Positions 9,709 through 48,156 of a stretch of DNA of 64,000 nucleotides are shown piece by piece. The DNA is from Physcia stellaris (lineage: Eukaryota > Ascomycota > Lecanoromycetes > Caliciales > Physciaceae). The notes below the pieces were generated by a model. It was not told where the DNA came from, searched no databases, and was given only the letters and a program-made list of their open reading frames with translations. The stretch spans positions 1,178,001 through 1,242,000 of the forward strand of contig JABSSW010000001.1 of NCBI GenBank assembly GCA_018902385.1, read 5' to 3'. How positions within the stretch are numbered: position 1 is the first letter of the stretch; each line of letters starts with the position of its first letter. A program made the position numbers and the translations under genes.

Positions 9709-10097
9709 ATGCCACTTTCTCCACCAATTGTGGAAGGAGCGTAAGTTTTCTCCCAACCCCTCATCTTAGACGAATGTGCTCATTATGCTCCACTACAAGT
9801 ATTGTAGCAACTGATAGCGATCACATGAAACTATGCATCATCTTGATCCTAGCTCGCCGATTCGTGTACACTGCTACTGGCGATGAGGATGACAGCGCAT
9901 GGCAGTCCATTGCGACAATGATCAACGACAAATTTCAACCTGAGAGATATGCAAAGGGACGCCTTTGGGGTATTTACAGGACTAAGAAGATGTACGGAGA
10001 GATAGAAAAGGACGAACACCCTGAGATCGTGCACTTGATGACTAAGGGAGCGCACGACGCCATTGTGAAGAGGAAAATGCAGCAACATGGCCTATGA
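9709..10097 (+). CDS. Family A small helical protein, member 1
   Basis: Two-exon gene. Exon 1 (9709-9740) encodes MPLSPPIVEG and ends in phase 2 at a GTAAGT donor. Several acceptors keep the frame (after 9799 or after 9817), giving a protein of about 103-109 aa. Exon 2 carries the family domain: a first helix around DHMKLCIILILARR, then AWQSIATMINDKF, then a third helix region ending in YRTKKMYGEI. The W..IA..IN..F signature and the phase-2 intron are shared with the genes at 11.2, 21.6, 23.0 and 24.5 kb. No signal peptide or membrane segment is evident. The fold resembles a Myb/SANT-like three-helix unit, but this is an inference and the function is unknown. Confidence 0.6.
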
Positions 10098-11161
10098 CTG
10101 GCTGATAATACCATTCGGACGGTTTCTAGATGGCTTTTGTACGAAAAATTTGGAACCAGAACAAATAGCAGAAAGCCAGCCTTTGCTGCGGAGGATATTG
10201 CAGGATGCTCACAGATAGCGATGGGCTGCCTGCTAAGTAGGAGATCTAGGCTGACTGACTCTGTGACCGTTAATTAGACTTTGGGAAACGAACTGTATCT
10301 GGCCAATGGTTGGCATCCTATTATAACTTTTCTTCAGCCGAATAAAGGTGTCTTTCCGTCTGGAAAGTTACGGTAAGACAGATAGCTTGGCGGTGAAGAA
10401 GTGCGGTTACGTCCAAAGTCTAGGCTACTTCCATCAGGACACAGATACCCGAGAGCCCTCAGTATCAGCTGCAACCTGGTACTCGGCAGCTCGTCTCCGC
10501 TAACACGATTTAAAAAATCGCTCATACGGACTGCGTGTCCCGCTACACGGTATGAGGCTTTAAATTGGGACAGCTGCATCCTATCATCCTGGGTATACTG
10601 GAAAGCTTGCAGAGAGTAGTACAAGACTGGGATCTATCGCTGAGGAAGATTCGAAGGCGGCCTGCAAGACGAAGCCTTGTAAGTCTGGTTGCACCTAATT
10701 ACTGATGTTATAGAGACAGTATCTTACCACTAATGCATGTGTCTACCTGTACCGGAACGGCTATCTACAGGTATATCGCTTATGGAGGACATGGAAAACA
10801 GAGGCACATGTGAAGGCCGGTTGACAGGCCGGACCGGACTTCGTTGAAGCACAAGTCCCAGGATAAATTGTTAGCCTGAAGGTTGCCTCTCTTCGAGGCG
10901 AGTCTCGGTGTCGGGATCCCTAGCATCAGACATGGTGTCGTTCGATATGAAATGATGACTTGCATGGCTGCACAAAGTGGAGAGCAAGGATGCATGGCTG
11001 TGATAGACCAATGGCGATGACCTTGGATCCCTTTCATCAAAGGCCTATAAGTAGTGTCTTCCACAGAAAAGCATCGGTCAAGACTCCAAGGGTGATTAGA
11101 GTTTCCTCATTTCGACAGCTATCTATCCTATATATAACATTCACTGCACATACTAGTCAGC
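10098..11161. other. Intergenic region between family A members 1 and 2
   Basis: No gene is supported. Frames at 10334-10624 (minus) and 10401-10619 (plus) are antisense to one another and have no family character. The last 100-200 bases should hold the promoter of member 2. Confidence 0.45.
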
Positions 11162-11593
11162 ATGGCCACGCACACAATTAGCAGAGATGGGCACCAACCC
11201 ACAATGCCCCCAGCCTAGTGAGTTTCTCAATGGATTAGATAGCTGAGGATTTCTATCTGACAAGTCCTTATCTCTCTCAGTCCAAAAATGGACAACGATA
11301 CCAAAGACAAGATCGATATGATGCTCCTTCTGGCGTACAAGATTGTAATTAAGAGTACGGGAAACCCCCCTCTACAAGGCCACTGGCAGAAAATCGCCGA
11401 TATAATCAATGCGAGATTCAGCTATCCTCTTCCACACCTTCCAGGGCTTGCGCTTCAATACGATTCTATGACAGCCAACCGCCATTTCCATCGTCTCTTA
11501 TTCGAAGATACAAACGCTAAATGGGGCAATCTACCCTTCGAAAACGACCAGGTGCAGAATGCCATTCAAAGTTACAACTTGGGTTCATTTTGA
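11162..11593 (+). CDS. Family A small helical protein, member 2
   Basis: Two exons, 11162-11217 and 11281-11593, splice in phase 2 to 122 aa. The 63-nt intron has a GTGAGT donor, a CTGAC branch site and a CAG acceptor. Exon 1 is short and ends in a proline-rich tail (PTMPPAY). Exon 2 holds the domain: helix 1 TKDKIDMMLLLAYKIV, helix 2 HWQKIADIINARF, then a longer linker and a third helical part (MTANRHFHRLLFED). It aligns with members 1 and 3 over these three segments. The start at 11162 is preferred over the internal ATG at 11188 because only the former brings exon 2 into the right frame. The function is unknown. A diverged repeat and a foldback transposon lie just downstream. Confidence 0.65.
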
Positions 11594-11825
11594 GTCAGAC
11601 CATCGGCATTGTAGACGACGCTAGCTGCATGATTTCTGTTGCGGTCCAGATAGTCAGTGGGTCTGCAACATATCGACAAGAGTCTTACTTTGGGCTACCT
11701 TGGATTACTTCACCAGATATGACAAGTCGTTATGCCTTATTTCTTCCGTATGAGATACTTGGACTTGAGACTTTTGAAGTGGAGAGAAGGAATGAGCTCT
11801 ACCGCAGGACGGAATTCAACATTTC

Positions 11826-12087
11826 TCTGCTGCACTTGATGCGAAGCGGTCCTCATCATGTCTTAGTACTTTTCAAGAGATATTTTGGTGAACCTGGAAT
11901 TAGGTGTTGCCCTGGTGCGCTTTCATTCACAGTGATTGGTTGTCACACCTTTTCATTCGAGGTCTATCCTGATATGGCACTGGCAGCTGATTCCATTCCA
12001 AAGGAGGCTCCTTTGCAGTACTTCCCTGGGATGTATCACCGCGAAAGCTTGGTAACGGTGATCGTGTATCAGTCGCGATGGCATACC
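11826..12087 (+). repeat. Segment B, left copy (coding-like duplicated segment)
   Basis: A stretch of about 260 bp that matches 21051-21287 at both nucleotide and translated level. Shared pieces include a leucine-rich start (LLHLMRSGP against LLRLMSSGP), a Cys-Cys-x-Gly-Ala-Leu motif, a VYPD motif and ADS-(I/V)-P-x-EA. Both copies end at an identically placed GTGAGT, as expected of an exon ending at a splice donor. The left copy lies in a 202-codon open frame (11521-12129). This is probably an exon, or the relic of one, from an unrecognised gene. Confidence 0.5.
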
Positions 12088-12139
12088 GTGAGTTTCTTGC
12101 CCCTTGCTGTTGTTATCGATCCATTGTAAGATTTCGATA

Positions 12140-12243
12140 CAGTCGTTTTAAAAAAGGTTGGCGGTCGGGAAACCCGAACTTCAGGTCCCCCCACCACACA
12201 TCGAAATCTGATGCACTTCGGAGCCAATCATAGAACATGCCAT
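12140..12243 (+). repeat. Left terminal inverted repeat of the MITE
   Basis: This arm begins CAGTCGTTTTAAAAAAGG and pairs with 12565-12667. Differences between the arms are mainly C/T and A/G transitions plus one extra C in the C run. Confidence 0.8.
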
Positions 12244-12564
12244 AAGCAGTACACAACGTTATTTAATTGATTGAATTTGACGTATAATTACAAAACATCA
12301 CAATTGTCATTGATAGTATGAATTTCAATAATTGTTTCGTTGTATTGTTGTGATGTGCATGTTGTTGACATATTGTTGAAATTTTTGCGTTAACAAAATT
12401 TTCAAACGGAGCACTTCTACGAAATAAACAGCAATATTTGCGACATTGTGTTTTCACAACAATACATCGAATTACATTATACAAATTCGTGTATTGATTG
12501 TATGTGCTATATGTATGACATTTTGATAGATATTTTCGATACATTGACGTTGCGTCGTGGTGAT

Positions 12565-12667
12565 ATGACATGTTCTATGATGAGCTCCGAAGTGCACCAA
12601 ATTTCGGTGTGTGGTGGGGGACCTGAAGTTCGGGTTTCCCGACCGCCAACCTTTTTTAAAACGACTG
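12565..12667 (-). repeat. Right terminal inverted repeat of the MITE
   Basis: Reverse complement of the left arm, ending CCTTTTTTAAAACGACTG, followed directly by the TA target duplication. Confidence 0.8.
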
Positions 12668-13513
12668 TAAGGGCTTGCCGCTGCAGAAGCACGTGACGGC
12701 GAGCAGAAGCGCGTCTTGGCGCCAGTGCGCCAAGAGAAACCACTCGATTTTCCAACGACCGGAGGCCTCCAACTTCAGCTTTCTCATTGTTCCAGACGTT
12801 GGAAACCCCATTCATCATGGATGGATGCTTCATGAAACCTATCATACCCTTCATCATTTTCGATTGACCCGTTCCGACGAGTCTTTTTCCACGGAGTCTT
12901 CAGCCAAGTGAGCCCGGCGTTCTTAAATCTCTTCCACCTGTTAATACTTACCACGGTGGGTATTCAGGTCTATTACGTCAGCTCATGCAAGCGTTCCTAG
13001 AGCCTTCAAACATTCTCCTTAGAGTGCTGTCAATCTTGATTCTTCGAATAGCCATGCTTCTCCAACTTGTGACGCGAAACATTGGAGCTTCGGAATGGCT
13101 ATCTTGTGCTTACAACTATCCAGGCTTTATTTCACGCCACTAAGAGAACAGATGATCCAATGCTCGACTGTAGATCAAACATATCAGAAAAATAGTCATG
13201 AATTCATTGAAAGAATTCTAGCTAACAAAGAGTGAATATATTCCCCGTTCTTGAGCAATTTAAAGCCACCATACCCCCCTGACAATCAGCAAAGCATGGG
13301 CGAAATCAAAGAGCCCATTTACATGCGCTGATTTTGCGCATAAGGATTTGTCCATAAGTCAAAAATACAGTTGCTAGAAGTTTGCTCGAGGTGAGATCAT
13401 TCTCATGTAGAGATGTGGTCTCGGTTAGTCACACCGTGCGTGTTCCTTCTGTGCCTTGATGATCAGTACTTTGCTACGACAGCTTATGCACTCAATACTT
13501 ACTTGGAATCAAG
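12668..13513. other. Intergenic region
   Basis: No gene is supported. The sequence directly right of the transposon may once have belonged with segment B on its left, but I see no open frame that clearly continues it. The far end is the 3' side of the SDR gene. Confidence 0.4.
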
Positions 13514-14542
13514 CTAATTATCCAACTCAAGGAAATTCCGAGCAACGCTCTTGACCTGTTCTTCAAAACTCGCAAAATCAATCCCAAGGACGCTCTTCGT
13601 GTATTCATTGTCGAAAAGTAGTTTCTTCGTAGAATTCGTCCCATTCAGAGGAAAGGTGCCATCCTTCACTGCCTCGGGAAAGTGTTGCTTGACAATCTCA
13701 AGGCCGTCCTCCCATCTGGTGTTTGAGCGATCTCCGACTCCCAAAAAGAATTGCCCGCCTGAAACTTTCTGGTCCAGAGCAAGCACATGCATCACAGCCA
13801 CATCTTTGACGTGGACGCTTGTGGATGGCGTTGGCCCAGCAGCAGCGCCGAGGAGTGCTCCAAGGGCTGCCCCATTCGTACCAGCTAGTATATCCCCTCG
13901 GGTAGCCGCCAACTCATGCTTTCCAATCACAAATGCAGGTCCAATGTTGTTGATGTCGAAACTCGGCTTCTGTGTGCGGACATACTCCTCGGTGGCATTC
14001 AGAGCGGCGACTTTGCCAGCCCCATACGCTGCAAATACACTGCCATATGGGCCTCCCACGGAGGTAGTGCGCGATTTCTCATTGAATACGGTGCCGGTCT
14101 CCCCAAACATCTCCGACCATGGGATGATAGCGACAATAGAAGAGGTGATGACTATTCGTTTGATGGACGTCGAATGCTCAGTCGCAGCTACGAGCATGTT
14201 CATCGTTCCTTGAACTGCTGGCTGGATAAGGACCTCGTCGTATGTCTCCTCCGAGGGGACCTCCTCTAGGTTCGTCGTTGGAGACGCAAGATGAATGACA
14301 TAATCCATGTCTTTAACTGCTTCAGAGTATGCATCTTTCTTTAGGATGTCGGGCACAAGGACAAACTCCAGCTGGCTGAGATACGGTTGGGTAGATCCGG
14401 CAGCTTTGATTTTCTGGATCCCACGGTCGTTGCGTATGGCAGCTCGGACTTTGTAACCTGCTTTCAGCGTTTCAACCAGGGTACGAAACCCGATGAAGCC
14501 AGTCGCGCCAGTGACGAGGACTCTTTCGGGAGTGTTTGTCAT
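13514..14542 (-). CDS. Extended SDR: NAD(P)-dependent epimerase / dihydroflavonol reductase-like protein
   Basis: Single-exon gene of 342 aa from the ATG at 14542. An upstream in-frame ATG at 14626 would give 370 aa, but the conserved fold starts at the second one (TPERVLVTGATGFIG). The Rossmann motif TGATGFIG occupies residues 11-18. The segment MDYVIHLASPTTN is the usual fourth strand. Ser134/135 (ITSSIVA) together with Tyr173 and Lys177 (AAYGAGK) give the SDR catalytic set. The YxxxK spacing and length fit the extended SDRs that include dihydroflavonol 4-reductase, ketoreductases and methylglyoxal reductase (Gre2). It probably reduces a carbonyl with NADPH in the cytosol; the substrate cannot be told. 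No metabolic cluster surrounds it. Confidence 0.85.
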   Translation of the reverse strand: MTNTPERVLVTGATGFIGFRTLVETLKAGYKVRAAIRNDRGIQKIKAAGSTQPYLSQLEFVLVPDILKKDAYSEAVKDMDYVIHLASPTTNLEEVPSEETYDEVLIQPAVQGTMNMLVAATEHSTSIKRIVITSSIVAIIPWSEMFGETGTVFNEKSRTTSVGGPYGSVFAAYGAGKVAALNATEEYVRTQKPSFDINNIGPAFVIGKHELAATRGDILAGTNGAALGALLGAAAGPTPSTSVHVKDVAVMHVLALDQKVSGGQFFLGVGDRSNTRWEDGLEIVKQHFPEAVKDGTFPLNGTNSTKKLLFDNEYTKSVLGIDFASFEEQVKSVARNFLELDN

Positions 14543-15370
14543 TGTGTCTTTGGTTGATATCGGTTGGTAAGTTTGAGCGGGAAGCTGACGATAGATACGA
14601 CTGAATATGTTTGTAAAGGTGGTCAAGGGAGCAGAGTACGTGCTTTGATATCCTATCCAGCAACAGGAGGTTTCGGTCGATCTCTTTGCCCTTATATAGA
14701 CTTCTGCGACTACACAGCCTGGCCCTTCTCTTAGCCTGCTTTCTAAGCTTTTCTATGACAACCAAACTACTACTACTGCTTACCGTTATCGACTCCTAGG
14801 GCTCCTTCATCAGCTCCTCGATTCGCGCATCAATAATTGGCTCAGCTCATGCATGTTGGCAGTCAGAGTCAATAACGATCCATGCCAGCGTGAGCATTTG
14901 GGCGATCGCTTAGATGGCCAGAGCTTTGATAGGCTATACATTATTTCCGCTTCTGGGATAGTATTAAGCCACACCCTTTAGTCGGCTGTGGGCAGGCTGT
15001 AGATGCAGGCTAAGCTTAGTAAGAAGGATTCAAAACTTCATTCCTGAGTCTAAGAGAAGTGAGACTACTGTGAGGTGTACACAGAATTTCAGCCTCCAGA
15101 GAACCGAGAGAACCAATCATTTGATCTATAGGATAGTTCCCGAACAGGTAATTTTCGTTCTCCAATCAGCGCTCGACAAGTATAAGCGCTACCGACTGCC
15201 AAGATTACAAGAGCACGTGCTCGTTTACACATCAAAGCAGCCTTCCAGAAACTTCACACGTCGATACTGCTGGGACTGTGTATGTCGACGTGGGAGAGCT
15301 AGTGTTAGCTGACAGATGTTTGAATATTTTGGAGTAGATACAAGCAAGAGTCCAGAGCCATCTTCACACG
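14543..15370. other. Divergent promoter region
   Basis: This stretch separates the minus-strand SDR gene from the plus-strand transcription-factor-like gene. Open frames here (15070-15312, for example) are short and encode no zinc cluster that could serve as a missing first exon of the downstream gene. Confidence 0.45.
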
Positions 15371-17015
15371 ATGTCCAACACGAAGCACAGGACGTCCGAC
15401 ACTCTGCAAAGTCTGACAACGATCGGAGAGGGTATCACCGAAGACGAAAGAGTTACCAGGACCCATGTCACGCGAAGCAACGTGCGGCATAGTAGCAATG
15501 CCGGAAACCCCCGTGCCACGGCACCCTCTCCAGCGAAATTCTCAGACCATCTGAATCGCTTTCGTCTAGTTGCACGAAAGGGTCCGAAACGCGTACGTCG
15601 GAGCGAGAGGGTTAGCTCCGATAGGCTTGATTCGACAACTGGGACGCCACAGAGACGACCCATTCTCCCGAAAGACCCCCAGATCCTACGCCAAATTACC
15701 TTAGCGAAGTCTTTGGCGGACCACAGGTTAAATAGTCACTCGTTACCTATCGATATCTCCACACCGGGCACATTGTCCTTGCTAGAGTACTACCATACCT
15801 CTTTTTGGGACAACTCGATAGCAAACAATCCTGAGGGTAAGTGGATGACAGTCGCTACTTGCCATCCGGCATTATTGCATGCTACCCTATGTGTGGTCGC
15901 TCTCCACAAGGTTCAGATCCATGGAAGGGTCCACGCACCGTTGTATTTATGGCACCGTGGTGAAGCGATACGGTTGATCTCGCAGAAGCTGGCCAGGCAC
16001 GAACATGCGACTTCTGATGCCACCCTTGCGGCGGTCGCAACCCTTTCAAGTGCCGATAATAGTGTAAGTTAGATCCAGATTCAATGAGCACTGGAATCGA
16101 AATATGAGCCATCTCTGGGGACGGGCGGATTGCTTATCGTCAGTGAGCAATAAATCATACGAAGGTGTCGTGAGAAGACAGCATCTTTCCTCTAGTCACC
16201 AGTTCAAAGATCTTTATTGTTGACTATTGACGATTTCATAGACGAGCTTGCCTTCGAACATCCAGTCATCCCATCTGGAAGGGATGATGACCATTGCCAG
16301 ACTTCGAAGGGAAGCAGACGGGGTAACATCATACGGAAACTTCGATGGAGTTATTGGATGGGCTGATGTACTCCATGCTGCTGTCCATAACTCCTTACCG
16401 CAACTAAAAGTTACTCCGCCAGACGGACGCCATAAGGGGATGCACTTAAGAGATATCCTAAAGCAGCCTGACTGTTTAGAAGTAGTCGCACTGAAAATGT
16501 TGCCAGCGCCGTTTCGAAAAGTATTCCGAAACTTGCAGACCCTCGCATGCGCAAAATCGCTGCTTATGAAGAGCGGGATGTCAGATCGTCATGAAACGCG
16601 GAAGATATTCAGCAACCATCTCCTCGAGACAGAGCATCAAATCTTAGAATTAGGACAGACAAGTTTGACTTCTCCTTCCAACACAATCTACCTTGCGATG
16701 GTTGAAGGAGTGAAAGCTGCAGCCCTCATATTCACCTTTCACCGTCTTCGAGACATATCTCTTACCGCCTCGTTCTTCGATAAACTTGTGTGGCGATTAC
16801 ATGACGCACTCTCCAATATTCTCGATGACCCATGTCATACCGCAGTTGAGGCATGTATGCTAGACGAAGCTCTCGTCAGGCCTTTCCTCCTCTGGCTCTG
16901 TTATAGCGGATGGAAAGGCAGCACTGTCAAGAGTCGAAACTTCGATCGAGATTTTTTCTTAGAAAAGATTGTTGGTTTATGCGAAAAAGGGGGATTGAAG
17001 CAATGGATGGTCTAA
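15371..17015 (+). CDS. Fungal-specific transcription-factor domain protein lacking a Zn2Cys6 cluster
   Basis: Two exons, 15371-16063 and 16242-17015, joined in phase 0 by a 178-nt intron, giving 488 aa. The N-terminal 80 residues are basic and Ser/Thr-rich (KGPKRVRRSERV). From about residue 110 the protein follows the fungal_trans_2-type helical domain: LSLLEYYHTSFWDN, CHPALLHATLCVVALHKVQ, LYLWHRGEAIRLISQKL and DATLAAVATLSS, and ends in the usual helical C-terminus (LWLCYSGWKGS). Such domains normally follow a Cys6 DNA-binding cluster, which is absent here and not found in the 800 bp upstream. It may act without one, as several fungal relatives do, or an exon may be lost. Neighbours give no clue to its targets. 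Confidence 0.75.
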
Positions 17016-18641
17016 GAGCTCAAGTAAGCAAAATAGCCTTCTTGCCCGAGCATGACATTCAGGCTTGCAGCGAGCTCTGGGCCAACATGAAAACGTGGAT
17101 GGCTTCACATGACGTTTGATGACCGCGACAATCCCGAGAACTCGCGAGCCGAGAAGGAAGCTTTAGACTGAGCATCCGGTCCCGGGAATAAGATTGTTTT
17201 CGGTAATCCAAAAGTACAGTATCCTCCCTACAAACAGAATCCTTGTTGCTTCCTAGACCAAGTCTCCCGAAGCAACGACGAACGGAGAAACACCATAGTT
17301 GGACCCCTCCACGAAGACGGAAATTCTTTGCGAGTCATCCAAGGATGACATTTGGTTACTGCATCACATGGGTTCTATTCACAAGCAAGCACTCGAGTGA
17401 GTCTGCCATTGTGCGACTTCGTTCCTCATTGACAACGCTTTGGAGGGTGAGCTCTTGATCTCCAATTCCGTGGCTCGCTAAGTCCGAGGCGTTCAGACGT
17501 ATAACCTCTGTATGACATGCCCGGAGGTGACCTTTGAAAGCATTCTCAAGAGGTCCCGCCAGTCGGCTGATGTAGCTCATGGTACGGAGTCAAACTAAAT
17601 GTATTGTACTAGGGCGGGACCAGAAAGATTGACGGGATAGTGTCCCTTGTGCCGTTACAGCACCATAGACTTAGTTGTGCCTCGGAGATGAGCTAAAATG
17701 AGTCGTAGCACAAGCCGCCCTGTATTGGGAAGCTTTAAGCGTCCCAGGCTGTCATGCTTGTGTATGAATGATATCGTCGGTACCACCCATCAGCTAGGCC
17801 TTAAATAATACGACCAATGTGTCATGAGTCATTTTATTGCGTCGTCCCACATGACTACTTTGGAAGACCAATGATTTGTGAAGCGACACGAAGTAACAGC
17901 AGATGAGAAAGCTATCTTCAATGACAGCTACCCTCTTTCTTCTCATTCGTTAGTTTCTCATGCACCTGGCTGTTCTCTTTCCAACGCTATTCGTAACGAG
18001 GACACCCATCGCAAAACCCTCTCGATAGCTATACGAGAATAGTCCGAGTCAGTCTTGTACCAACTTTTCTTTTCTCTTCGCATGAACGCAAACATTCACT
18101 CAGCGTATACATTTGCTGACCAGTTCTTGCTCTCCAGGCCAATCTGAACTTTTAATAGTGGATCACCTGTTTGGATTAGATGTAAAAGGCTAATTTCCCT
18201 GAAATCTTCTAAGAACCGCCGATGGTTGTCAGAGCCGCCTGGCCTGTCTTCCGCAGGACTTTACAGGGTGTCTATCCACCGTCTGACTCCAGGACCTCAA
18301 CTAAAGCCCGCACTTTTTTCCTCAGACCAAATGACCATTGGTGTAACAGTCATCATGTGCTCGCTACCTATCAATCGATTGGTAGAGTAATATGAAGCTA
18401 GTGTTGGCCTCAATCCTGTACGGCGTAAGCCTGCTCTCTCATGTATAATTATGTAGTCTTTCCCCCAGATATTCAATGCATCAGGAACTCGGTTTAAGCT
18501 TACTTGATACGTTCTTTTCCATCCTACCCATCAATCGACAATACCAGGCTTCTTGAAGAACTACTAGCATATCGTGACCGCACTTACACCGAAAACGTCC
18601 TACTGCTAATAGATTGTCTCGTTTGTAGACATACTGTATCA
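17016..18641. other. Gene-free stretch upstream of the SRR1-like gene
   Basis: No supported gene. The distal part, from about 18200, is pyrimidine-rich in places and should hold the promoter and leader of the SRR1-like gene. Frames at 17243-17458 and 17356-17580 are antisense to each other. Confidence 0.45.
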
Positions 18642-19498
18642 ATGGCTGAACAACAATCGGACCCACGTGATCTATCAAAAGTTTATCCACTCCGCGACTT
18701 GCCCGTCAGCGAATCTCCAGGCGAGGTTATGGAGAAGATGACCATCGAAGTCATAGAGAAGAAGCACAAGGACTATCTCGACGCCTGGAAAGATTCTCCC
18801 ACCTATAAAAAATACTCTGAGATAATTGGAAGTAAGGCTCTCAAGCAAGGCAATCTTAAGGTCACCCAATGTATGTGCTTGGGAACTGGAAGCTTTACGA
18901 CTGGAGAGAGTGGAAAGGCGCAGCTGCTTTGGAGGGTTCGCGATATGGCCATGTCGCAGCTTGTTGTTTTTGAAAGCTTCATGGAGTTGTTGAGTAAGCC
19001 ACGTGTCCCTAGCTCTTCACAAAAGCACACACTGTCTAACAATGCCAAGAGGAGAAATATACCTTCGATCACGTCTATCTCCAGGACCCTGTCTATAATG
19101 CTCTGGATGAGCACTTTCTCAAAAAGCTCGGCTACACTATCCTTCAAACCCCAGAGTCTGACAAGTACATGAGCAATACAACCTTCCTCTTCATCCCATC
19201 TGCTACCTGGGAGGTCGAAGAAGCTTCCCTCAACGCAGCATTCCCAGCGATCTACATTGGGCCTAAGTTGGTAGATAGGGCTCAAAACCAAATGGGTAAT
19301 GAGCGGGGTCAGCTGTACGAGGATTTCTTGAACAAACGCGCTATCAAAAAATTTCCCCATCCCGCCGAGCTACAGAAGGATTTACATATTAACCATGTAC
19401 CACCGGGCCTAGAAGTGTTTTGGTACTTTGGTCTTGGGGAGGGGTTATACCTCTACTATGAACCAGACAATGAGAGGGACAAGACTAAGTGGAAATAG
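18642..19498 (+). CDS. SRR1-like domain protein
   Basis: Two exons, 18642-18993 and 19050-19498, splice in phase 1 to 266 aa. The 56-nt intron has a CTAAC branch site. The core of the SRR1-like domain is present: CMCLGTGSFT (the CLG-GS motif), then LLWRVRDMAMSQLVVFESF, then the hallmark HVYLQDPVYN and HFLKKLGYTIL, and the strand SNTTFLFIPSATWEVEEASL. The family is named for Arabidopsis SRR1 (phytochrome B signalling and clock) and yeast Ber1 (microtubule-related); fungal copies are often multigene and unstudied. The start at 18642 gives MAEQQSDPRDLSKVYPL; an upstream in-frame ATG at 18504 would add 46 residues unlike the family. The gene looks intact. Confidence 0.8.
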
Positions 19499-21050
19499 AA
19501 GGTTGGAGAAAGACTGTACTGGGCGTGCACAAGCGGAGACATTGGCAAGAGGACAACAAGTTGCTTATCTATTCTTTCGAGATAAGAGTTTGCACTGACA
19601 GGTTACCCGTGATAGCGAAGGTTGACGATTATCCATCGTGATAGGATGAGCGATCTAGGACATCGCGTTAGGTAGACGAAGCAGGCCTTTGTCTATGGGC
19701 AAACTGGCTGCAAATGTTGGATGGACTTGCATCTTCTCGAGAAGCACTTGCTATATTCTTCTAACTGTGTTGGAGATTGTTGACATGTATGACACTTGAT
19801 GGAGCTTTCTTGCAGTATCTATCGGTAATGTTTTAGCACTGGATCAAAGCTTTCACGCAATCCAAGCATGGGGTAGCAACTTTTGATCTGTGTTCATTGC
19901 TTTGGCTCCATACAATCGATGATTCTACTAAAGGACTACAGATCAATACCTTGTTCCCGTCATCTCAATGGATCGATAAACATTCGCGCCATGACCGGCT
20001 AACGAGCCCGACATGTGGGAAGACTGTAAAGGTTCGGGAGAAGATAAATTAGAGACGGATAGAGTAATTTTACTTCCATACCTCCATAATCCTCGTGTCT
20101 CTTGCTTCTCTCAAATATGCGTCTGTTGGTATACTCGTCCCTTGAATCATTGAGATAATTGAGAACTCTTCCAGGCCTACATTATCACGCATTGAAATTC
20201 GATATACTAAAAAAACATGAAGTATGAAGCAGCAACCCCCCTACTTTGCGGGTACGGTTAAGGTATGTTTAACGAGACATTGGGGTGTGCCGCTTAATTG
20301 ACGAACTAAGGGATACGTCGTCCAATAAACAATGAATCGACAGTCAATCCTCACATGCACACCCCTTCCAACGGAGAAGACCTCTGTTATAACATTTCAT
20401 CCTGTCGAATTATTGAGATGGTATTGGCTAGCCAAGGATAAGTCCTGAACGTTGCCATCTCTTGTTTTTACCACTTAGTCTTAAGCTACACGGTATAGCA
20501 TATCCAGGTCTGCATCCCTCTACAACTTCTACACCACTCATGATACATATCGACAGCAAAGATCGTGCAAGACACATCATAAACGGAGAAAACTATCCCT
20601 ACGTAACCATACTAACGATGGCGTTGACGCAAGGTCAGCGCTAGCTCTGTCCTAGCCTTTTGGCCACAAATTGCAAACAGCCATTCAACAACGACGTCGC
20701 CCGAAAAGTCGCACGACAGGGATTTTCTCCGAAGAACGATGGCTAATATAGGTCGTGTCACTGTGTTTGCCCTCGGCTTCACAGCCATGGGTAACAGCAT
20801 TGATATGCACGTTCCCGACGACCTGTGTCGTTTCATCTGAATATGATTCACAACTGCAGTCCCTCGGTAGCTCTAGTCTGCGTCGTAGGCAACTAGAAAC
20901 CTGGGCGCCGCTCTTGTTGTTCATGTCAAGTCCGTCACGCTGGGTGGCGCCGAGTCAGGCGATTAGATAGAGAACATACTAATCGAGCCTGGAAACAAAA
21001 AAGAGCTGGAAAGGGGAAGGGGCACAGCTCGAAGCCTTGAGTCTATGGAA
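19499..21050. other. AT-rich gene-free stretch
   Basis: No gene is supported over about 1.5 kb. Frames at 20612-20924 and 20755-20970 are antisense shadows of one another. The right end runs into the right copy of segment B. Confidence 0.45.
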
Positions 21051-21287
21051 CATGCTGCTACGCTTGATGTCAAGTGGTCCTTCTCCTTTTTCACTTGCTT
21101 TCCTCGTAAGGTTCGGATTTCAACAACGCTCGACAAAAGTAACGTGTTGCCGCGGAGCTCTTCCATCTGCGGTCTATCCTGATGTAACAGCTGATTCCGT
21201 TCCAGACGAGGCTCTGAACAGTAATCTGCTGGGCGATGGCACCACAAAAGACATGTTGGTGGTCGTACGCAGTCGTGTTGGCATGCA
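21051..21287 (+). repeat. Segment B, right copy
   Basis: Diverged duplicate of 11826-12087. The best block is TCTATCCTGAT...AGCTGATTCC...GAGGCTC, and the encoded VYPD...ADS-V-P-x-EA is kept. It ends at a GTGAGT at 21288 that aligns exactly with that of the left copy. The open frame is shorter than on the left. It stands about 350 bp upstream of family A member 3, whereas the left copy stands downstream of member 2. Confidence 0.5.
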
Positions 21288-21634
21288 GTGAGTCTCTACC
21301 ACTTGCTCACTCCACATCATCTGTCACTATCGCTGTTGACTACCAAGCATCGGTCGTATATGATCTGCAGCCATCCATCTCTGCTGACACACTCTTGCTG
21401 CGAAGCATCTTTAATCCAATTCTCCTGCTACACGTAGCCAACCCAGCTCAGGACCTTGGGATATGCGACACGAACATGTGGTACTGGACAGACTTCGATC
21501 CTGTCAACTAGCAGCCATCGCTCCCCAAATGTATATATAAGTATAGTCCTGCTCTTCCTCGAGATGTAGCTTTTATGTTAGAAAGCGTTATCCTGTATAT
21601 GAACATATCGATACCTGGTTGATACAAAGGGGCA

Positions 21635-22093
21635 ATGCAGAACCCAAATATTCCACCAGCCCAAGCACCACCAGGACAGGCCGGCCCGGCTCGTCCACCC
21701 CGGCCGTAAGTTATCAATTTACTAGGAATCCCTTGAACCATCGTTGCTGACCCTAATATCCACTACACTAGGGGACGACTGACTCCTGAATCCAAGGATA
21801 TCATCCAGAAGATCATTCTTGTTGCCCGCCGGACTACACACAAGCCTCGCCCAGGCTTCACTGACTATCAACTTTGGAAAGACCTAACAGATTTTATAAA
21901 TCGCCACTACCAAAGCAGGACAATCTACGATTGGACTTACGTAAGAGACTATTACAACCATATGTATGGAGTGCGACGCGAATATCCTGAGACGGTTGAA
22001 AAATTCATAGAAATGGGGGACGAAGAGCTTCAGACTCTGGCAGAGAGTCTAAATTTGCAACCACCGCGACCGCCACCGCCACCGACGTCCTGA
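21635..22093 (+). CDS. Family A small helical protein, member 3
   Basis: Two exons, 21635-21705 and 21772-22093, join in phase 2 to 130 aa; the 66-nt intron has a GTAAGT donor and a CTGAC branch site. Exon 1 is proline-rich (NIPPAQAPPGQ, ARPPRP). Exon 2 has the domain in its clearest form: helix 1 SKDIIQKIILVARR, helix 2 QLWKDLTDFINRHY and helix 3 WTYVRDYYNHMYGV, followed by an acidic helix (EKFIEMGDEELQTLAESL) and a polyproline tail (PPRPPPPPTS). Helix 3 is rich in Arg and Tyr, as in recognition helices of Myb/trihelix domains, though this is inference. The function is unknown. Confidence 0.7.
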
Positions 22094-23045
22094 TGTTGGA
22101 TTGAAGGTTGAAGCAAGAACATGTGTTGTTTCCGGGCTTCATTCCACTATAGGCACAGAATGTTGGGACAATGAGATCGAAGAGAGATAACGGAGAAGGG
22201 AGATAGGCCCTGATGTTTACCTGGCTGCTGCGTGAGATGGCATAATCCAACATTATAACATCTTTTCACTCGTTACAACCTTTTCCTACCGCAAAAGTAC
22301 ACCCACCACATGTTTCTTTGGAACTCTCGTTTAGTGGTTGCTAGCTAAGTAGCAGCTTGTCGTCGGATACTATATGCAATCATCAAATGGCTCTTGATTC
22401 TTGAACGGGCTCTAGCTCGTGTAAGACCTTCGCTTCAAAGATTCTCGTGGAAATTTCATCCATGCTGATTGCGGCGGATACAAGAGCCTGAAGGCTGAGT
22501 CTTACTTGCAGAAACAGACATCACAGCTGTATCTACCCGAATCTCTTCGAAATTTTATCTACTGCGATTTGACTGGGTGAATGCATTACCAGACATGGTG
22601 ACTGGGTGCGGGCCTGAGAAAATAATCGGCAGCCAATCTGGAAGAGTCTAACTATGAGAAGGATTCCTCAAAAGGTTACAATTTTGAGGTAATAATGATT
22701 TGAATTGTTTCATATTTTTCTAAGTTGTGAACGGGTCTCAGACATCGGTATTCATGCTACTTCAATTTTCAATGAACCGATTGAGCTCTCTCTAGTACAT
22801 GGATTCTTTATGAACATTGTAGGACAGTGAAAGCTCAGGGGTTGTGGCTGTGTTCTGTGCCAGTGGGCTCTATTCATACTTAATGATGAATGCTGCGTGC
22901 CTAATTCTCACATGAACGGCTAAGGTCTTTTTACATATAAAGCGCCAGCCGCTCCCGTTTCCTCTGCTCGAATACGCACCCATCCCCGGCGTCTCGGCAC
23001 CGAAAACTCATAGACCTAAATCAAAGACTTCTGGTTGTTACCACA
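22094..23045. other. Intergenic region between family A members 3 and 4
   Basis: Nothing supportable. The last 120 bases include a TATA-like stretch (acatataaagc near 22933) about 110 bp before the start of member 4. Confidence 0.4.
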
Positions 23046-23530
23046 ATGGAGAACCTGAGATCCGAACTAGGCTGGTAAAGTTTTCACTTCTGATTACGTG
23101 ATAGGATACTGATTCGTGTATATCGCAATCTAGCTCTCACCGCCAGCACTCAAAGATCAAATGGCTCATTGTCATATCTCGACTATATATTTTTGATGGC
23201 GAGCTGGCAGATGAAGATCTGGAGCAGGAGACCACGGCTCTGTCAGAAGACCATCTAGCCGCGTGGCAGGATATTGCAGACAAAGCCAACGCGCAGCTGC
23301 GCTTATGGGGGTACAGCCACGACCCATGCAACATAGGATATGTCAGGCGCAAGTATAAACACGAAGAACGTTTCAGTGGATATGGAATGGGTTATCACAA
23401 TCTATTGAGAGAGCGAGCTTCGAATTATCCAGGCCTGGCAGAACAGATACGACACATCCAGCAGTTGAGACTTCCACGCTTGAGGATCGAGGGACCGGGC
23501 TCAGGTCAGAGGTTGTTAGAATGGAGATAG
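23046..23530 (+). CDS. Family A small helical protein, member 4
   Basis: Two exons, 23046-23074 and 23134-23530, join in phase 2 to 141 aa. Exon 1 encodes only MENLRSELG plus a split Cys codon. Exon 2 contains helix 1 (IKWLIVISRLYIF), an acidic linker, helix 2 AAWQDIADKANAQL and helix 3 NIGYVRRKYKHEERF, then a basic tail (QQLRLPRLRIEG). The helix 1 to helix 2 gap is longer than in members 1-3. Intron place and phase, and the AW-x-x-IA motif, identify it as a relative of the other four. The function is unknown. Confidence 0.65.
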
Positions 23531-24508
23531 AGTCACATAAGGAGCTGATTGGATCACGATACATGGGCCTGTCAAGCGATACACGACAGTTTCTAATGGC
23601 TGGAAGATAGAATATTGGGGGCAATGGAGCAGTACGAGTAATGTAAAAGTTTAATAGCCCACTGGCAATTTACAAAAATCACGGGGGTGCCTTTTGCTCT
23701 GTCAGTTTAAATCTTTATGTTTGTCATATGAAAGAGGAACTCTGGGGCTACATGTAATCGGAATACATGTAAGCGCTTTATTCAAATTTGACTTCCCAAT
23801 ATCCCTGTGCTGTGCCGAAAGCGAGTCTCATGGATTGATAGGCCGCCATGTATCGGTTTAGCGCTGATAATTGCCACTATAGAGTCCCGATAAGCACCAT
23901 TTTCTGAAAGTCACGCTGCTTATATATTTACACATACCTTATGTTGGTAGCGAGCTTGGTGGTAGAGACCGAGATGAGATGTGTACAGAAGGTTCGACGG
24001 GGATAACATACTCCTCTTAAACATCTCACACCATCCTTCCATCACCTGAGATCCCCATTCTGATGGTTCCGTACAATCAAGACCATAGAATCATTCACCA
24101 TGGTCAAAGACAGAATGCCCACCACCTTGACAGAATACGAATCGAAATGGTGCTTGCATCAAGAAGACATGTGTAGTCTGACATCGATTGGCTGGTGTCC
24201 ACGGACATCTAGCAGCACTTACTGAATGTGGAACATCCCGCATCCTGACGCCCCGCAGCCCGACACGAAGTGCTCTTGGAATTTTGTCCCACTTGGCGTC
24301 GCCAGATGACGCAGATCAGAGTGTCGGTTAGTCTGAATATCACTATCGACCTTCATTGCCGCCAGTCACCAGACGCCGTCACTTCACGAGTGGCTTGATT
24401 TGGTTGCCTGGCTGTGCTTTGGGCGTCAAGTCTCGCATCACAGCTGTCTGGCACGTGATCGCGATGACGAGCCTTCCCCCCTCGACTTTGTAACCATGAT
24501 CTTCGTTT
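23531..24508. other. Intergenic region between family A members 4 and 5
   Basis: No supported gene. Short frames at 24353-24541 and 24400-24642 overlap the start of member 5 in other frames. Confidence 0.4.
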
Positions 24509-25240
24509 TTGGCAGAAAAGAAAGATTACTGCTTGCATCAAAATTCATTAACGACAGCCTCAAGCCGCACGCCAGTAACTTTCCCTTATCCCGGAAGAGC
24601 AGAGCCGATCTGGGCAAGAATGCAACGCTCTACCGAGCCTGATAGCTACCTTCAAGATACCCGACTTTGGGAGGAGTGGACTACGGAGAGACCCCAGATA
24701 AAGACTCGATTCGACCTTCAAGATACGCGGATATTGGGGGAGAGGACCACCGAAAGGCCTAAGAGAGAATCCGTCACCGAAACTAAACGATACTCGCTCT
24801 CGGATTCCCTAAAGATGGTAAATGGCGCTGACTCAGACGAGGCCTCCCTTCGAAAGTAAATTGATGCATCCTTACATGTCTTCATAACCATCATTACTGA
24901 TCGAGGACATAGGAACCGGACGAAGCTTTTGATCCCTTTTCCCTTCACAGATTCCCAGGAGCACCAGTCTGTAGTCAACAGCATAATCACTATAGCCTTC
25001 GTTCACGTCTTCCCGGAGAACCAATATACTTTAGACGATGCAGCCTTGAAGATAGCAACCAAGCTCCAGTCGCAAACGGCGTTCCCAGATATTACCGGAA
25101 AGGGAACATATACGGCTCAATGGGTTGAGGAACGCTATCGCCAGCTTACGGCAAGTCAGAACGAGGATTATGTGAAGTGGTGTAGCAAGGCATCGGACGA
25201 TAAAGAGCTTTCGGATTTTCGGGCTCGCATGAATCTTTAG
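24509..25240 (+). CDS. Family A small helical protein, member 5, with enlarged first exon
   Basis: Two exons, 24509-24855 and 24913-25240, join in phase 2 to 224 aa; the 57-nt intron has a GTAAAT donor and a CTGAT-type branch site. Exon 1 encodes 115 residues, against 9-24 in the other members. It is hydrophilic and holds an imperfect internal duplication: LQDTR followed about 13 residues later by TTERP, occurring twice between residues about 48 and 92. Exon 2 has helix 1 QSVVNSIITIAFVHVF, helix 2 DAALKIATKLQSQ (the usual Trp replaced) and helix 3 TAQWVEERYRQLTAS. It is the most diverged member and links to the family by intron phase and helix order. The function is unknown. Confidence 0.6.
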
Positions 25241-36284: not shown

Positions 36285-37196
36285 CTAGTCATCACTGGTG
36301 CTGCGGTCTAAGGATGTTTCGTCTTCCTCTCCTTTTTCTTCATCTGTGACCGAACTGCTCTCACTTGATATAGCAAAGTTGCCGATCCTATCTCCTATGC
36401 CGAAAGTCTCACTGCTAGTACTAGCAGGACTATCAACGGCCTCCAAGAATATCTCAGGGGACAGACATTTTTCGATTCTCCATATGGACATCCCACCACT
36501 GCTCTTGAGCTCGTTGTAAAGTCGACGAGTCTCATCCTCGATGGACATAAGCTCCTGAGGATCTGTACTCCTTTCAGCATTCACAATGGATTGATGCCAT
36601 TCCATGAAAGTATAATGCCGTGCTTCACACTTTGTTCTTAGCTCTTGCCGGAGTGTATCTGGCAGGTCAGGCTGAGAGGTGGTGGTCCTTGGTAGACTTT
36701 CTCTGGAGAGAAAGTTTTGGATGTTGATCCATGGATTCACCTCCAGTATTAGGACTTTACTACGACCACAGCATCCCGTACGCATCTGTCCATACATCTC
36801 GGCCTTCTCTCCTAGATAGGTCTTAATATCGACGTAGACGTTGTGTCTAATCAAGCACTTCTCGCATATGATATCAAAGCTAGCTTCTTCGTTCCGCTCG
36901 ATTTGAATATAATCATCATTCAGGACCCGTTTCTTAGCTTGAGGGTATGTTACTCCAAGGATGTGTTCGACTCTGGTGATGATGAAGTCAAGGTCAAAAT
37001 CGTACCTTTCCTTCTCTTCAAAATTTGGCAATGTTTCCTGCCACTTCTCCTTCAGGGCCGCCTTGAACATGATTGTACGGAAGGTGCTTTGTTCTCTTAA
37101 CTTATGTTTCAGAAAAGTATCATGTTCTTCGTCCCACCAGCACGGTTTATAGTAGCCAGGCTCGGGCGCCATAATTATATCTCGTTTTTCAGGCAT
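36285..37196 (-). CDS. Family B Cys-pair protein, member 1
   Basis: Single exon, 303 aa (295 aa from the second Met at 37172). N-terminal CWWDEEHDTFLKHK; a block YDFDLDFIITRVEHILG (residues about 65-81); a first Cys pair ICEKC (111/114); a second pair TGCCGRSKVLIL (142/143) followed by VNPWINIQNFL; a helical region; and a conserved segment ELKSSGGMSIWRIEKCLSPE. A Ser/Glu/Asp-rich acidic tail closes the protein. The two Cys pairs could bind one zinc ion, but this is inference. The same blocks occur in the genes at 38.2 and 46.0 kb. Not related to any family I can name. Confidence 0.65.
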   Translation of the reverse strand: MPEKRDIIMAPEPGYYKPCWWDEEHDTFLKHKLREQSTFRTIMFKAALKEKWQETLPNFEEKERYDFDLDFIITRVEHILGVTYPQAKKRVLNDDYIQIERNEEASFDIICEKCLIRHNVYVDIKTYLGEKAEMYGQMRTGCCGRSKVLILEVNPWINIQNFLSRESLPRTTTSQPDLPDTLRQELRTKCEARHYTFMEWHQSIVNAERSTDPQELMSIEDETRRLYNELKSSGGMSIWRIEKCLSPEIFLEAVDSPASTSSETFGIGDRIGNFAISSESSSVTDEEKGEEDETSLDRSTSDD

Positions 37197-38207
37197 ATCT
37201 CGTAGACTGGGATTGCAAGGTAACGTTGTTTGAGTTCGATGGTGATCAGGGCTCTTGGATGCAGGTAAGTTGTGCTCGTATCTTGCTTCCTACGATAGAA
37301 GGTTCAGAATAGGTGCTTAATACCTTGAAGGATTGGCTACCTAAGGAAACAGGAATGCGAAGGATCTGAACGATCCCAGGCAAAGCTAGTGACTCCTACG
37401 GCCACTGTAGGCACACCAAAAGTTTGTTTTTAACGTAACATGACCACGTAGTACATGGGTACGAGCCTAACCGAGGCATCCTACAGAAGTATAATCCTCA
37501 TGAATAGCTAGATACTATTTAGTCTTTCTTACCACCAAGTAGTCTTACCTTGCAGTGTTACCTAGTCAGCTTCCAGTAGCAAGAGATATGAGTGGAATAT
37601 TTAGCGTCCAGCGCTCCACTGTCGGCTAGCGTCTCAACACACTATCATACTAGCGTTAGCGATTGTCCAGTTTAGGTTGAATTTAGCGTCGACCGTGCAC
37701 ATACTCTTGAATCCCATTTTGCGGTACATAGCATCAACTCGAAAGCCTTAGTGATCTGGAACCCCCTGAAAGATCAACAGTCATGCACTCGCCCACGGCT
37801 GTAACAGACAAGTCAGTCTACAGGGTATCCAAAGTGGCCTGCATCCGGTCGACTAGGAATTGTGCTACCCAGATGTGATGGTCATATGATATCCCCAGCA
37901 CTACGTGCGAGAACTGGCTGCTAAGGATACATTTCCACCCTTAGAGCTGGGATGGCCATTATCTCAACGTATATAATGATTCTTCTTGATCACAAAGAAT
38001 CGTATAGTAGTCTTTTTTCACAACCTGCTAACTAAAGAGTACTTATATGGCAGCCATGAGGTCGTGCAGCAGCGCAAGATTATCTTAGACTCCAGGCAGA
38101 AGTTCTGGATAGCTGATACCTAGGAGAGCAATTGCATTCTATGAAGTAAAGGTGTGGAAAGATACCCAGAGTACAACTGTTTAGTAGCTCTCTATCCTTG
38201 TCTTGAT
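37197..38207. other. Intergenic region between family B members 1 and 2
   Basis: No supported gene. It holds the promoter of member 1 on its left and the 3' side of member 2 on its right. Confidence 0.45.
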
Positions 38208-46024: not shown

Positions 46025-46792
46025 TCATGCAAAGTTGTCTTTCTGCAGCTTGGGCATATCCTCATAAGCTTTGTCCCATAGAAAGACACCCCCAGCATCA
46101 TCCAACTCCTTCTTCGCAGCCATCAGTTCGTCTTTGCACTTCTGCAGCTCATTCGGATCGTCTTCCTTCCCAACACCTGTCTCCGCCTGCTTCACCGCTC
46201 TCTGGCACGAAAGCCACTGCCTCACCAGAGCCTTCCGGTTACTCATCACTTCTGCCAAAATCTCCTCTTTCCGATCCGAGTAGAGATCCATGAACATTTT
46301 TCCATAGAGCCGAACAGCGTGTTGATATAAATTCTTTATAACATAGGCTTTGGGCATCGGATTGAGGACCCATACTTTCTCGCTGCCGCAGCATCCTGCT
46401 CGTGGGAACCCTATGCCCGACTTGTCGCTCTTATTCAAATTCTCAACCCTCATGTAGATCCTGCCATCTTCTTCCCGTCCGCAGGGGCACACCATGCCAA
46501 GATCTCGGTATCGTTTCGGTTCCTTTTCGGTCCATTGGTGGCTTAGAACCCAGCTTCTGGCTTCAGAAATGCTACCAGTGGTAGTACCAAGTATCGAGAT
46601 GACGAGATCGATGTCGAAAAGACTCGGGTCCCATGGTTTGCCGTTTTTGGAGCGGTATGTGGTGGTGTACTCGGCGATCTCGGTTTTAAAGCCTTTGATG
46701 TCGAAGGGAGCGTTGTCGTATTCGTAATGAGAGTCCAAGATGTTGTCAATATTGGGTGTCCACCAGTCTGGTTTTTGAATGAATAGTGCCAT
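46025..46792 (-). CDS. Family B Cys-pair protein, member 3
   Basis: Single exon, 255 aa. Blocks shared with the 36.3-kb gene: PDWWTPNIDN at the start, FDIDLVISILG (about 59-69), CPCGREEDG (Cys102/104), RAGCCGSEKVWVLNP (Cys134/135) and the end segment KKELDDAGGVFLWDKAYEDM. It lacks the acidic tail of member 1. A CT-rich leader precedes the start (46.79-46.86 kb). The body is helical and highly charged, with no signal peptide. It keeps the clearest match to member 1, so the two probably split later than member 2. The function is unknown; a small zinc-binding protein is a guess. Confidence 0.65.
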   Translation of the reverse strand: MALFIQKPDWWTPNIDNILDSHYEYDNAPFDIKGFKTEIAEYTTTYRSKNGKPWDPSLFDIDLVISILGTTTGSISEARSWVLSHQWTEKEPKRYRDLGMVCPCGREEDGRIYMRVENLNKSDKSGIGFPRAGCCGSEKVWVLNPMPKAYVIKNLYQHAVRLYGKMFMDLYSDRKEEILAEVMSNRKALVRQWLSCQRAVKQAETGVGKEDDPNELQKCKDELMAAKKELDDAGGVFLWDKAYEDMPKLQKDNFA

Positions 46793-48156
46793 TTTCTGTC
46801 TGTGGTGTTGATGTGGATGTTGAGTAGGTTTTGGGTTGAAGAGAATCTAGAGGACGGAGCAAGTGGATACAGTGGGCTTAAATAGTTCTTGCATTCAACA
46901 AATGAAGTGAACAAAGTACAACGATGCCCGTGAACAAGCGAGATACATGCTGTCACTGCCTTGTCGATCCAGATGTGACAGCTTGGTAACCCCAAACTTC
47001 AAGCTCGCTGCACATATTTCACCACCTTGTCGAACTTGACGTGACTGCTCATTTGCCGTAATTGTCAAGGTAATCAGGGACATGAAGATGTCGTCAGCGC
47101 TGCATAGATCGGTTGTAAGTGAATCAAAGTTACGATGGGTAGTGAAGATTCATAGTCGAGAATGCTTTATAAGCTTCACCACAAGTAGTGATGATGGCGG
47201 TCCTTAACAGCTCAACGAGAGGTTACAATTTCTCGTGAACCCCTCGCTGAAGACTGTCCACGCTAAAATGAATTTATATATCGCTGAAGGATCACATCAG
47301 AGTTGATGTTAAGGTTAATTGACAGCTTTCAAAAGTCGGAGGCTCGGACCGGGCTAGGCAGTACAGGACTCGCTAACTCTATGATTGCCCAAACTGACAA
47401 GCAAATTCCACAGCTACGGGTCTTTTTATCGAGACTGGAGACGAAGTGTCTCAGAGCAAAGGCTATATCCTCATATTTGCGTTCTTTTTTGTGCTGTACA
47501 CAGGAGCTTTTCGCCAATGAAATGGTCCAATAAGTCTGCAGCCTCCCCAGCTGGGCTGTACCGTGATTACCTTATGCCAATTAACTTTCGAGACATCAGA
47601 AGTCTTCCTGTCACCAGATCTTAGTCTAGAGTTTCTATTATGAAGGACGTGTACCAACCGACGAGCCTCATGTGGAGGGTTCCAGCGTGTATCATGAATG
47701 CAAGGATGTAAGTCATTTTTCAAGATTGTCGACAAAAGGTGTCTTCAGTCAGCGACTGCTGCCACCGGTTGCTTTTTTCACCAGTTTCTGTGTAACAGTC
47801 CTCTTACGAAAATTAATCAATGAAGCGTCAAACCTTCTCTTCCAAAACATAGTATGCTGGGTATGCACTTCTCATCCTCGACAATAGGGCAGCGACGAGA
47901 ATCATACCCAAAAATCAGCCTTGCATACCAGCATCGTCGATCCAGCTAACAGCGTTCGGTGAAGCTCAATTTCCAAGTCTCCAGGTTTGTGGAGCTGCAT
48001 CCTCTCCGTGTGTCAAAAGCATCTTCCAGGAAGCCTTGGCTTCTGACATCGTAGTTGTTTCCGCCCATTGTATGCTTTCTCTACGACTTTCTGAACAATA
48101 ATACTGACTCTACCCATCAAGACAGAAGCCACCAGCTAAAACACAGCTCTCCCAAC
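46793..48156. other. Intergenic region
   Basis: No supported gene; frames at 47303-47735 on the two strands overlap. The right end is the promoter and leader of the 48.2-kb gene. Confidence 0.45.

Follow-up and report, generated by a model that had tools for sequence, protein, structure and literature searches.

A local family of fast-diverging, predicted two-exon genes in Physcia stellaris

We identified a real, local and fast-diverging gene family without a Pfam entry in the ascomycete Physcia stellaris (assembly GCA_018902385.1). Its five members, here called genes 1 to 5, were read in a 64,000-nucleotide stretch of contig 1 (JABSSW010000001.1, positions 1,178,001 to 1,242,000; the window) of a 44-Mb genome of 147 contigs. 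All five lie on the plus strand and carry, in their second exon, a domain with a hydrophobic first helix, a second helix resembling (W)..IA..IN..F and an aromatic third helix. Our best explanation, on which we would place about even confidence, is a lineage-restricted family that arose by local duplication of a two-exon gene followed by rapid divergence, and whose products most likely act in the nucleus as Myb/SANT-like modules, binding to DNA or to chromatin partners.

Homology among the five genes

When the gene 1 domain served as phmmer query on the 1,359 open reading frames (ORFs) of at least 30 amino acids in the window, genes 2, 3 and 4 ranked second to fourth after gene 1 itself (E = 0.0082, 0.26 and 0.63). 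Leave-one-out profiles were run against a larger set of 5,210 ORFs from 256 kb, made up of the window and its flanks, about 100 kb on the upstream side and 88 kb on the downstream side (the stretches overlap slightly). The held-out gene was the top ORF outside the training set in all four trials, with E values of 7.8 × 10−7, 5 × 10−4, 0.015 and 0.1 for genes 1, 2, 3 and 4. Profile-profile comparison gave a probability of 82.5 (E = 1 × 10−5) for the groups of genes 1 and 2, and weaker matches for groups 2 and 4 (41.0, E = 2.8 × 10−4), 1 and 4 (20.9, E = 1.1 × 10−3) and 2 and 3 (17.0, E = 1.5 × 10−3); the pairs 1 and 3 (E = 0.065) and 3 and 4 (E = 0.043) were unsupported on their own. By the leave-one-out retrievals, the homology of genes 1 to 4 is beyond chance, at identities to gene 1 of 22, 22 and 25% for genes 2 to 4.

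Gene 5, at 16% identity to gene 1, is by sequence the weakest member. It was the top ORF outside the training set for a profile of genes 1 to 4 with their relatives, but at E = 0.29. Among 3000 shuffles in each case, 1 reached the real score for gene 5; for its relatives the counts were 1 (P0005), 34 (P0010) and 0 (P0012). The expectation that all five would retrieve one another was therefore borne out by profile for genes 1 to 4, and for gene 5 by rank and shuffles only.

No further member stood out in the 256 kb, where the next rows of the multi-group profiles had E values of at least 0.6. Single-sequence searches of the P. stellaris genome, for which the gene 1, 3, 4 and 5 domains and the gene 2 relative P0007 served as queries, returned only the expected window site and one row each at E = 6.4 (gene 3) and E = 7.7 (gene 5); such genome-wide searches also miss known paralogues and so do not exclude members elsewhere.

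Gene models

We enumerated splice models by script, requiring a donor score of at least 0, a pyrimidine-AG acceptor, an intron of about 45 to 150 bases and an in-frame ATG upstream; the donor weights were general ones, not derived from this genome. Under these rules genes 1, 2 and 3 each had exactly one model, all in phase 2 and all with at least one branch-site motif. Gene 1 (9709..10097) consists of exon 1 at 9709-9740, an intron at 9741-9817 with donor GTAAGT (score 5.9) and exon 2, which contains the domain, at 9818-10097. A second in-frame acceptor, at 9799, was excluded by the pyrimidine rule, and the product is 103 or 109 amino acids long depending on acceptor choice. P0006, a gene 1 relative, has a similar stretch ahead of the domain (IVATDTDHMKL versus IVATDSDHMKL), so either of the two acceptors may be used. 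Gene 2 (11162..11593; exon 1 11162-11217, intron 11218-11280, exon 2 11281-11593) encodes 122 amino acids and has donor GTGAGT (4.8), while gene 3 (21635..22093; proline-rich exon 1 21635-21705, intron 21706-21771, exon 2 21772-22093) encodes 130 amino acids and has donor GTAAGT (5.9). At the level of sequence models, these three genes share one structure.

Gene 4 (23046..23530; exon 1 23046-23074, intron 23075-23133, exon 2 23134-23530; 141 amino acids) fell below the donor-score limit, and loosening the score yielded one phase-2 model with the weak donor GTAAAG. Gene 5 had been placed from 24509, which is a TTG; the in-frame ATG is at 24620. From that start (24620..25240) the weak donor GTAAAT allowed one model in each of the three phases. 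A branch-site motif is present only in the phase-2 version, which has exon 1 at 24620-24855, an intron at 24856-24912, exon 2 at 24913-25240 and a product of 187 amino acids. The first-pass annotation had proposed a single phase-2 intron just before the domain in every gene. Such an intron is predicted by a unique and strong model in genes 1 to 3, depends on a loosened donor score in gene 4 and is the best of three weak models in gene 5. It had also described the first exons as short and often proline-rich except in the fifth gene, to which gene 4, whose first exon (MENLRSELG) lacks proline, must be added as a second exception.

As a control, we searched for splice models in 93 other ORFs of at least 100 amino acids in the window. 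A model was found in 32 of them at a donor score of 0 and in 6 at a score of 4; by phase, the score-4 models numbered three (phase 0), two (phase 1) and three (phase 2). A strong donor (score 4) together with a branch-site motif occurred in 2 of the 93 controls as against 3 of the 5 family genes, a rough comparison in that the anchor was fixed 54 bases into each control ORF and the limits of the five genes were set by hand.

Relatives in other genomes

Searched with an alignment of the five genes, 505 candidates yielded 11 proteins, including gene 1 of the window itself. Another round, over 397 candidates, listed nine, adding P0012 and no longer listing P0007, P0009 and P0011. Gene 1 is related to P0002, P0003, P0004 and P0006 at 81-86% identity; gene 2 to P0007 (64% identity), P0008, P0009 and P0011; and gene 5 to P0005, P0010 and P0012 (90, 76 and 61%). 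By these alignments, genes 1, 2 and 5 have homologous relatives elsewhere. The longest contig listed is 110,637 bases for each of P0004, P0007 and P0010 and 4,785 bases for both P0006 and P0009; given these matching figures, the linkage of groups 1, 2 and 5 seen in this window probably exists in a relative too. A tblastn search of P0007 against plasmids found nothing.

No relative of gene 3 or 4 was among the proteins found in either profile round, and the whole spliced gene 3, as a single-protein query against a large protein collection, placed none of 97 candidates at E ≤ 1. Exon 2 of these two genes has no ATG ahead of the domain, so a gene caller blind to introns might miss their relatives.

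Comparison with known families

The claim that the layout belongs to no named family holds at the sensitivity of Pfam-A, NCBIfam and PDB sequences, and no published description of such a family was found in the literature, judged by titles. Across 16 members, scans at E ≤ 1 matched eight Pfam-A families (best E = 0.029) and three NCBIfam families (best E = 0.08), and the most members hitting any one family was 3 of 16 (AntA). We took the Pfam matches, among them DUF2398, TilS, DUF3788, OGFr_N, Dak1 and AntA, as chance (E ≥ 0.029, below cut-offs where these are shown), likewise the NCBIfam matches (E ≥ 0.08, one of them a helix-turn-helix regulator) and those to PDB sequences (one at E = 2.9 with a five-sequence profile; six with a 15-sequence profile, best E = 0.28). 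With the same two profiles, no Sap1 chain was found among PDB sequences at E ≤ 10. Over the P. stellaris genome Myb_DNA-bind_4 and Myb_DNA-bind_5 gave 0 and 1 match under the cut-off; both were also silent in 14 control genomes, which makes this result uninformative.

Predicted fold and possible function

The domain had been described as three-helical, and the structure models instead show five main helices. The same DNA-binding domain heads the VIA list for both models and the best structural neighbours are DNA binders, although fold families absent from the VIA lists are not thereby excluded. In shape the models come closest to Myb-type DNA-binding domains, a moderate lead towards a Myb/Sap1-like helix-turn-helix. 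The DNA-binding domain of Sap1 from Schizosaccharomyces pombe is 11% identical to the family in structural alignments; it has four main helices whereas the family has five, and the family consists of small proteins in which Pfam scans found no second domain. The DNA-binding domain of Drosophila Zeste, which is of the Myb/SANT type, is also among the closest known systems. Plant RADIALIS-type proteins, small proteins with one Myb-like domain, offer an analogy of layout only. One such single-MYB protein is termed a small interfering peptide in a passage of PMC6838138. A viral fold library, for which the gene 1 model was the sole query, gave 85 matches at E ≤ 10; none of the best 50 of these 85 fell below E = 0.34, and the top match was an uncharacterised Marseillevirus protein (probability 0.93).

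Outside gene 5 and its relatives, the alignment shows a recurring tryptophan where helix 2 begins. Several members, not including genes 2 and 4, have a tryptophan near the start of helix 3, in different columns, and gene 4 alone has one in helix 1. Gene 4 also carries a 13-column insertion between helices 1 and 2. The Myb/SANT core is marked by three regularly spaced tryptophans or aromatic equivalents, and the family alignment does not show these three regularly spaced positions. The third helix had been described as rich in Arg and Tyr; in segments cut by hand, its net charge ranges from −1 to +4, with genes 1 and 4 basic and gene 2 at −1.

Read together with the models, the family may comprise small, probably intracellular proteins of about 100 to 190 amino acids, each with a short first exon ahead of a single compact domain of five main helices. 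Of these, the first three would form the Myb/Sap1-like helix-turn-helix and the last two would come after it. Such proteins would most likely work in the nucleus as free-standing Myb/SANT-like modules, binding to DNA or to chromatin partners either independently or in competition or partnership with larger regulators. More tentatively, we propose an undescribed fungal family of fast-diverging Myb/Sap1-like domains that has stayed together as a linked array in related genomes and supplies a small nuclear set of DNA- or chromatin-binding proteins with no other domain.

Several results weigh against the Myb/SANT-like DNA-binding proposal. None of the 16 members matched a Myb family in Pfam-A, and none of the five spliced proteins matched Pfam Myb/SANT profiles at E ≤ 10. 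Other results bear on the unity of the family: gene 4 alone retrieved other ORFs but no family member at E ≤ 3 among the 5,210; single-sequence searches with gene 5 retrieved none of genes 1 to 4, and neither did its group profile at E ≤ 3; and profile-profile comparison of the gene 5 group with the other four groups gave E values of 0.09 to 0.49. The proteins themselves are near-neutral (net charge −2, for gene 5 counting exon 2 only, to +2), and their charges neither exclude nor favour DNA binding. Since the charges do not favour it, the main rival is a SANT-like protein-interaction module, in which small proteins dock on a partner through the helical bundle and do not bind DNA. We regard this as possible but the less likely role. 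The slightly acidic third helix of gene 2 would suit it, as would the strong divergence of the paralogues, expected where no common DNA site is kept; the basic third helices of genes 1 and 4 and the DNA-binding character of the best structural neighbours argue the other way.

It is improbable that the domain is a small helical fold unrelated to Myb, with another, cytoplasmic role and with the Sap1 match reflecting a common helical arrangement: one and the same DNA-binding domain tops both VIA lists, and a W..IA second helix followed by an aromatic third helix resembles Myb. That the five are not real genes at all, being chance resemblances or decayed remains, is very improbable, since the weak donors of genes 4 and 5, the control ORFs with a score-0 model, the missing ATG at the reported gene 5 start and the unfound relatives of genes 3 and 4 are set against complete leave-one-out retrieval, open-frame relatives for genes 1, 2 and 5, and the excess of strong donor and branch-site models over controls.

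Because its members are short, interrupted by an intron and share about 16-25% identity with gene 1, this family may be missed by routine annotation, yet profile and structure can recover it. If the Myb-like proposal is true, it would add lineage-restricted minimal DNA- or chromatin-binding proteins to those of fungi, and the tandem array would let the divergence of a domain after duplication be traced member by member.

Probable duplication and genomic surroundings

The array may have grown when an ancestral gene with two exons and a phase-2 intron just before helix 1 underwent local segmental duplication and its copies then diverged rapidly. Three observations support local duplication with strong divergence, as first proposed: the leave-one-out homology, the lack of any other outstanding ORF in the 256 kb, and a decayed repeat of neighbouring sequence. 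The repeated part lies downstream of gene 2 (11961..12108, plus strand), and its second copy lies upstream of gene 3 (21171..21307, plus strand). The two are 69% identical over 149 columns (E = 6 × 10−9, in a pairwise blastn of two stretches picked by eye), and several gaps in their alignment are not multiples of three. This repeat was absent among the matches listed from a self-search of the whole window (E = 1 × 10−6). A protein read from the first copy matched only itself in the genome, not the second copy, and had no Pfam match at E ≤ 0.01. The repeat fits a segmental duplication of a gene with its neighbour, the second copy having since decayed.

The interval between genes 2 and 3 encodes a NAD-dependent epimerase-like protein, a fungal transcription-factor domain (E = 3.9 × 10−5) and an SRR1 domain; these genes do not suggest a shared pathway. 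The SRR1 domain (E = 2.9 × 10−14) lies in an ORF at 19040-19498 that is overlapped in another frame by an ORF at 18498-19172, and the pair may represent a single gene, with an intron or a disrupting frameshift between its pieces. The same interval holds a palindromic repeat at 12138-12669 with perfect 54-base terminal inverted repeats that start and finish with TA. At least ten near-full-length copies (this one included) occur in the genome at 84-100% identity, along with fragments. It resembles the miniature inverted-repeat elements of TA-target (Tc1/mariner-like) transposons.

Elsewhere in the window, two minus-strand ORFs at 36288-37289 and 46028-46846, neither with a Pfam match at E ≤ 0.01, are 23% identical over 240 residues (E = 4 × 10−8) and are perhaps a second divergent local family. 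Finally, a 713-amino-acid ORF on the minus strand (53830-55971) contains a tandem repeat at 55067-55332 with a period of 87 bases (29 codons) and 82-86% identity.
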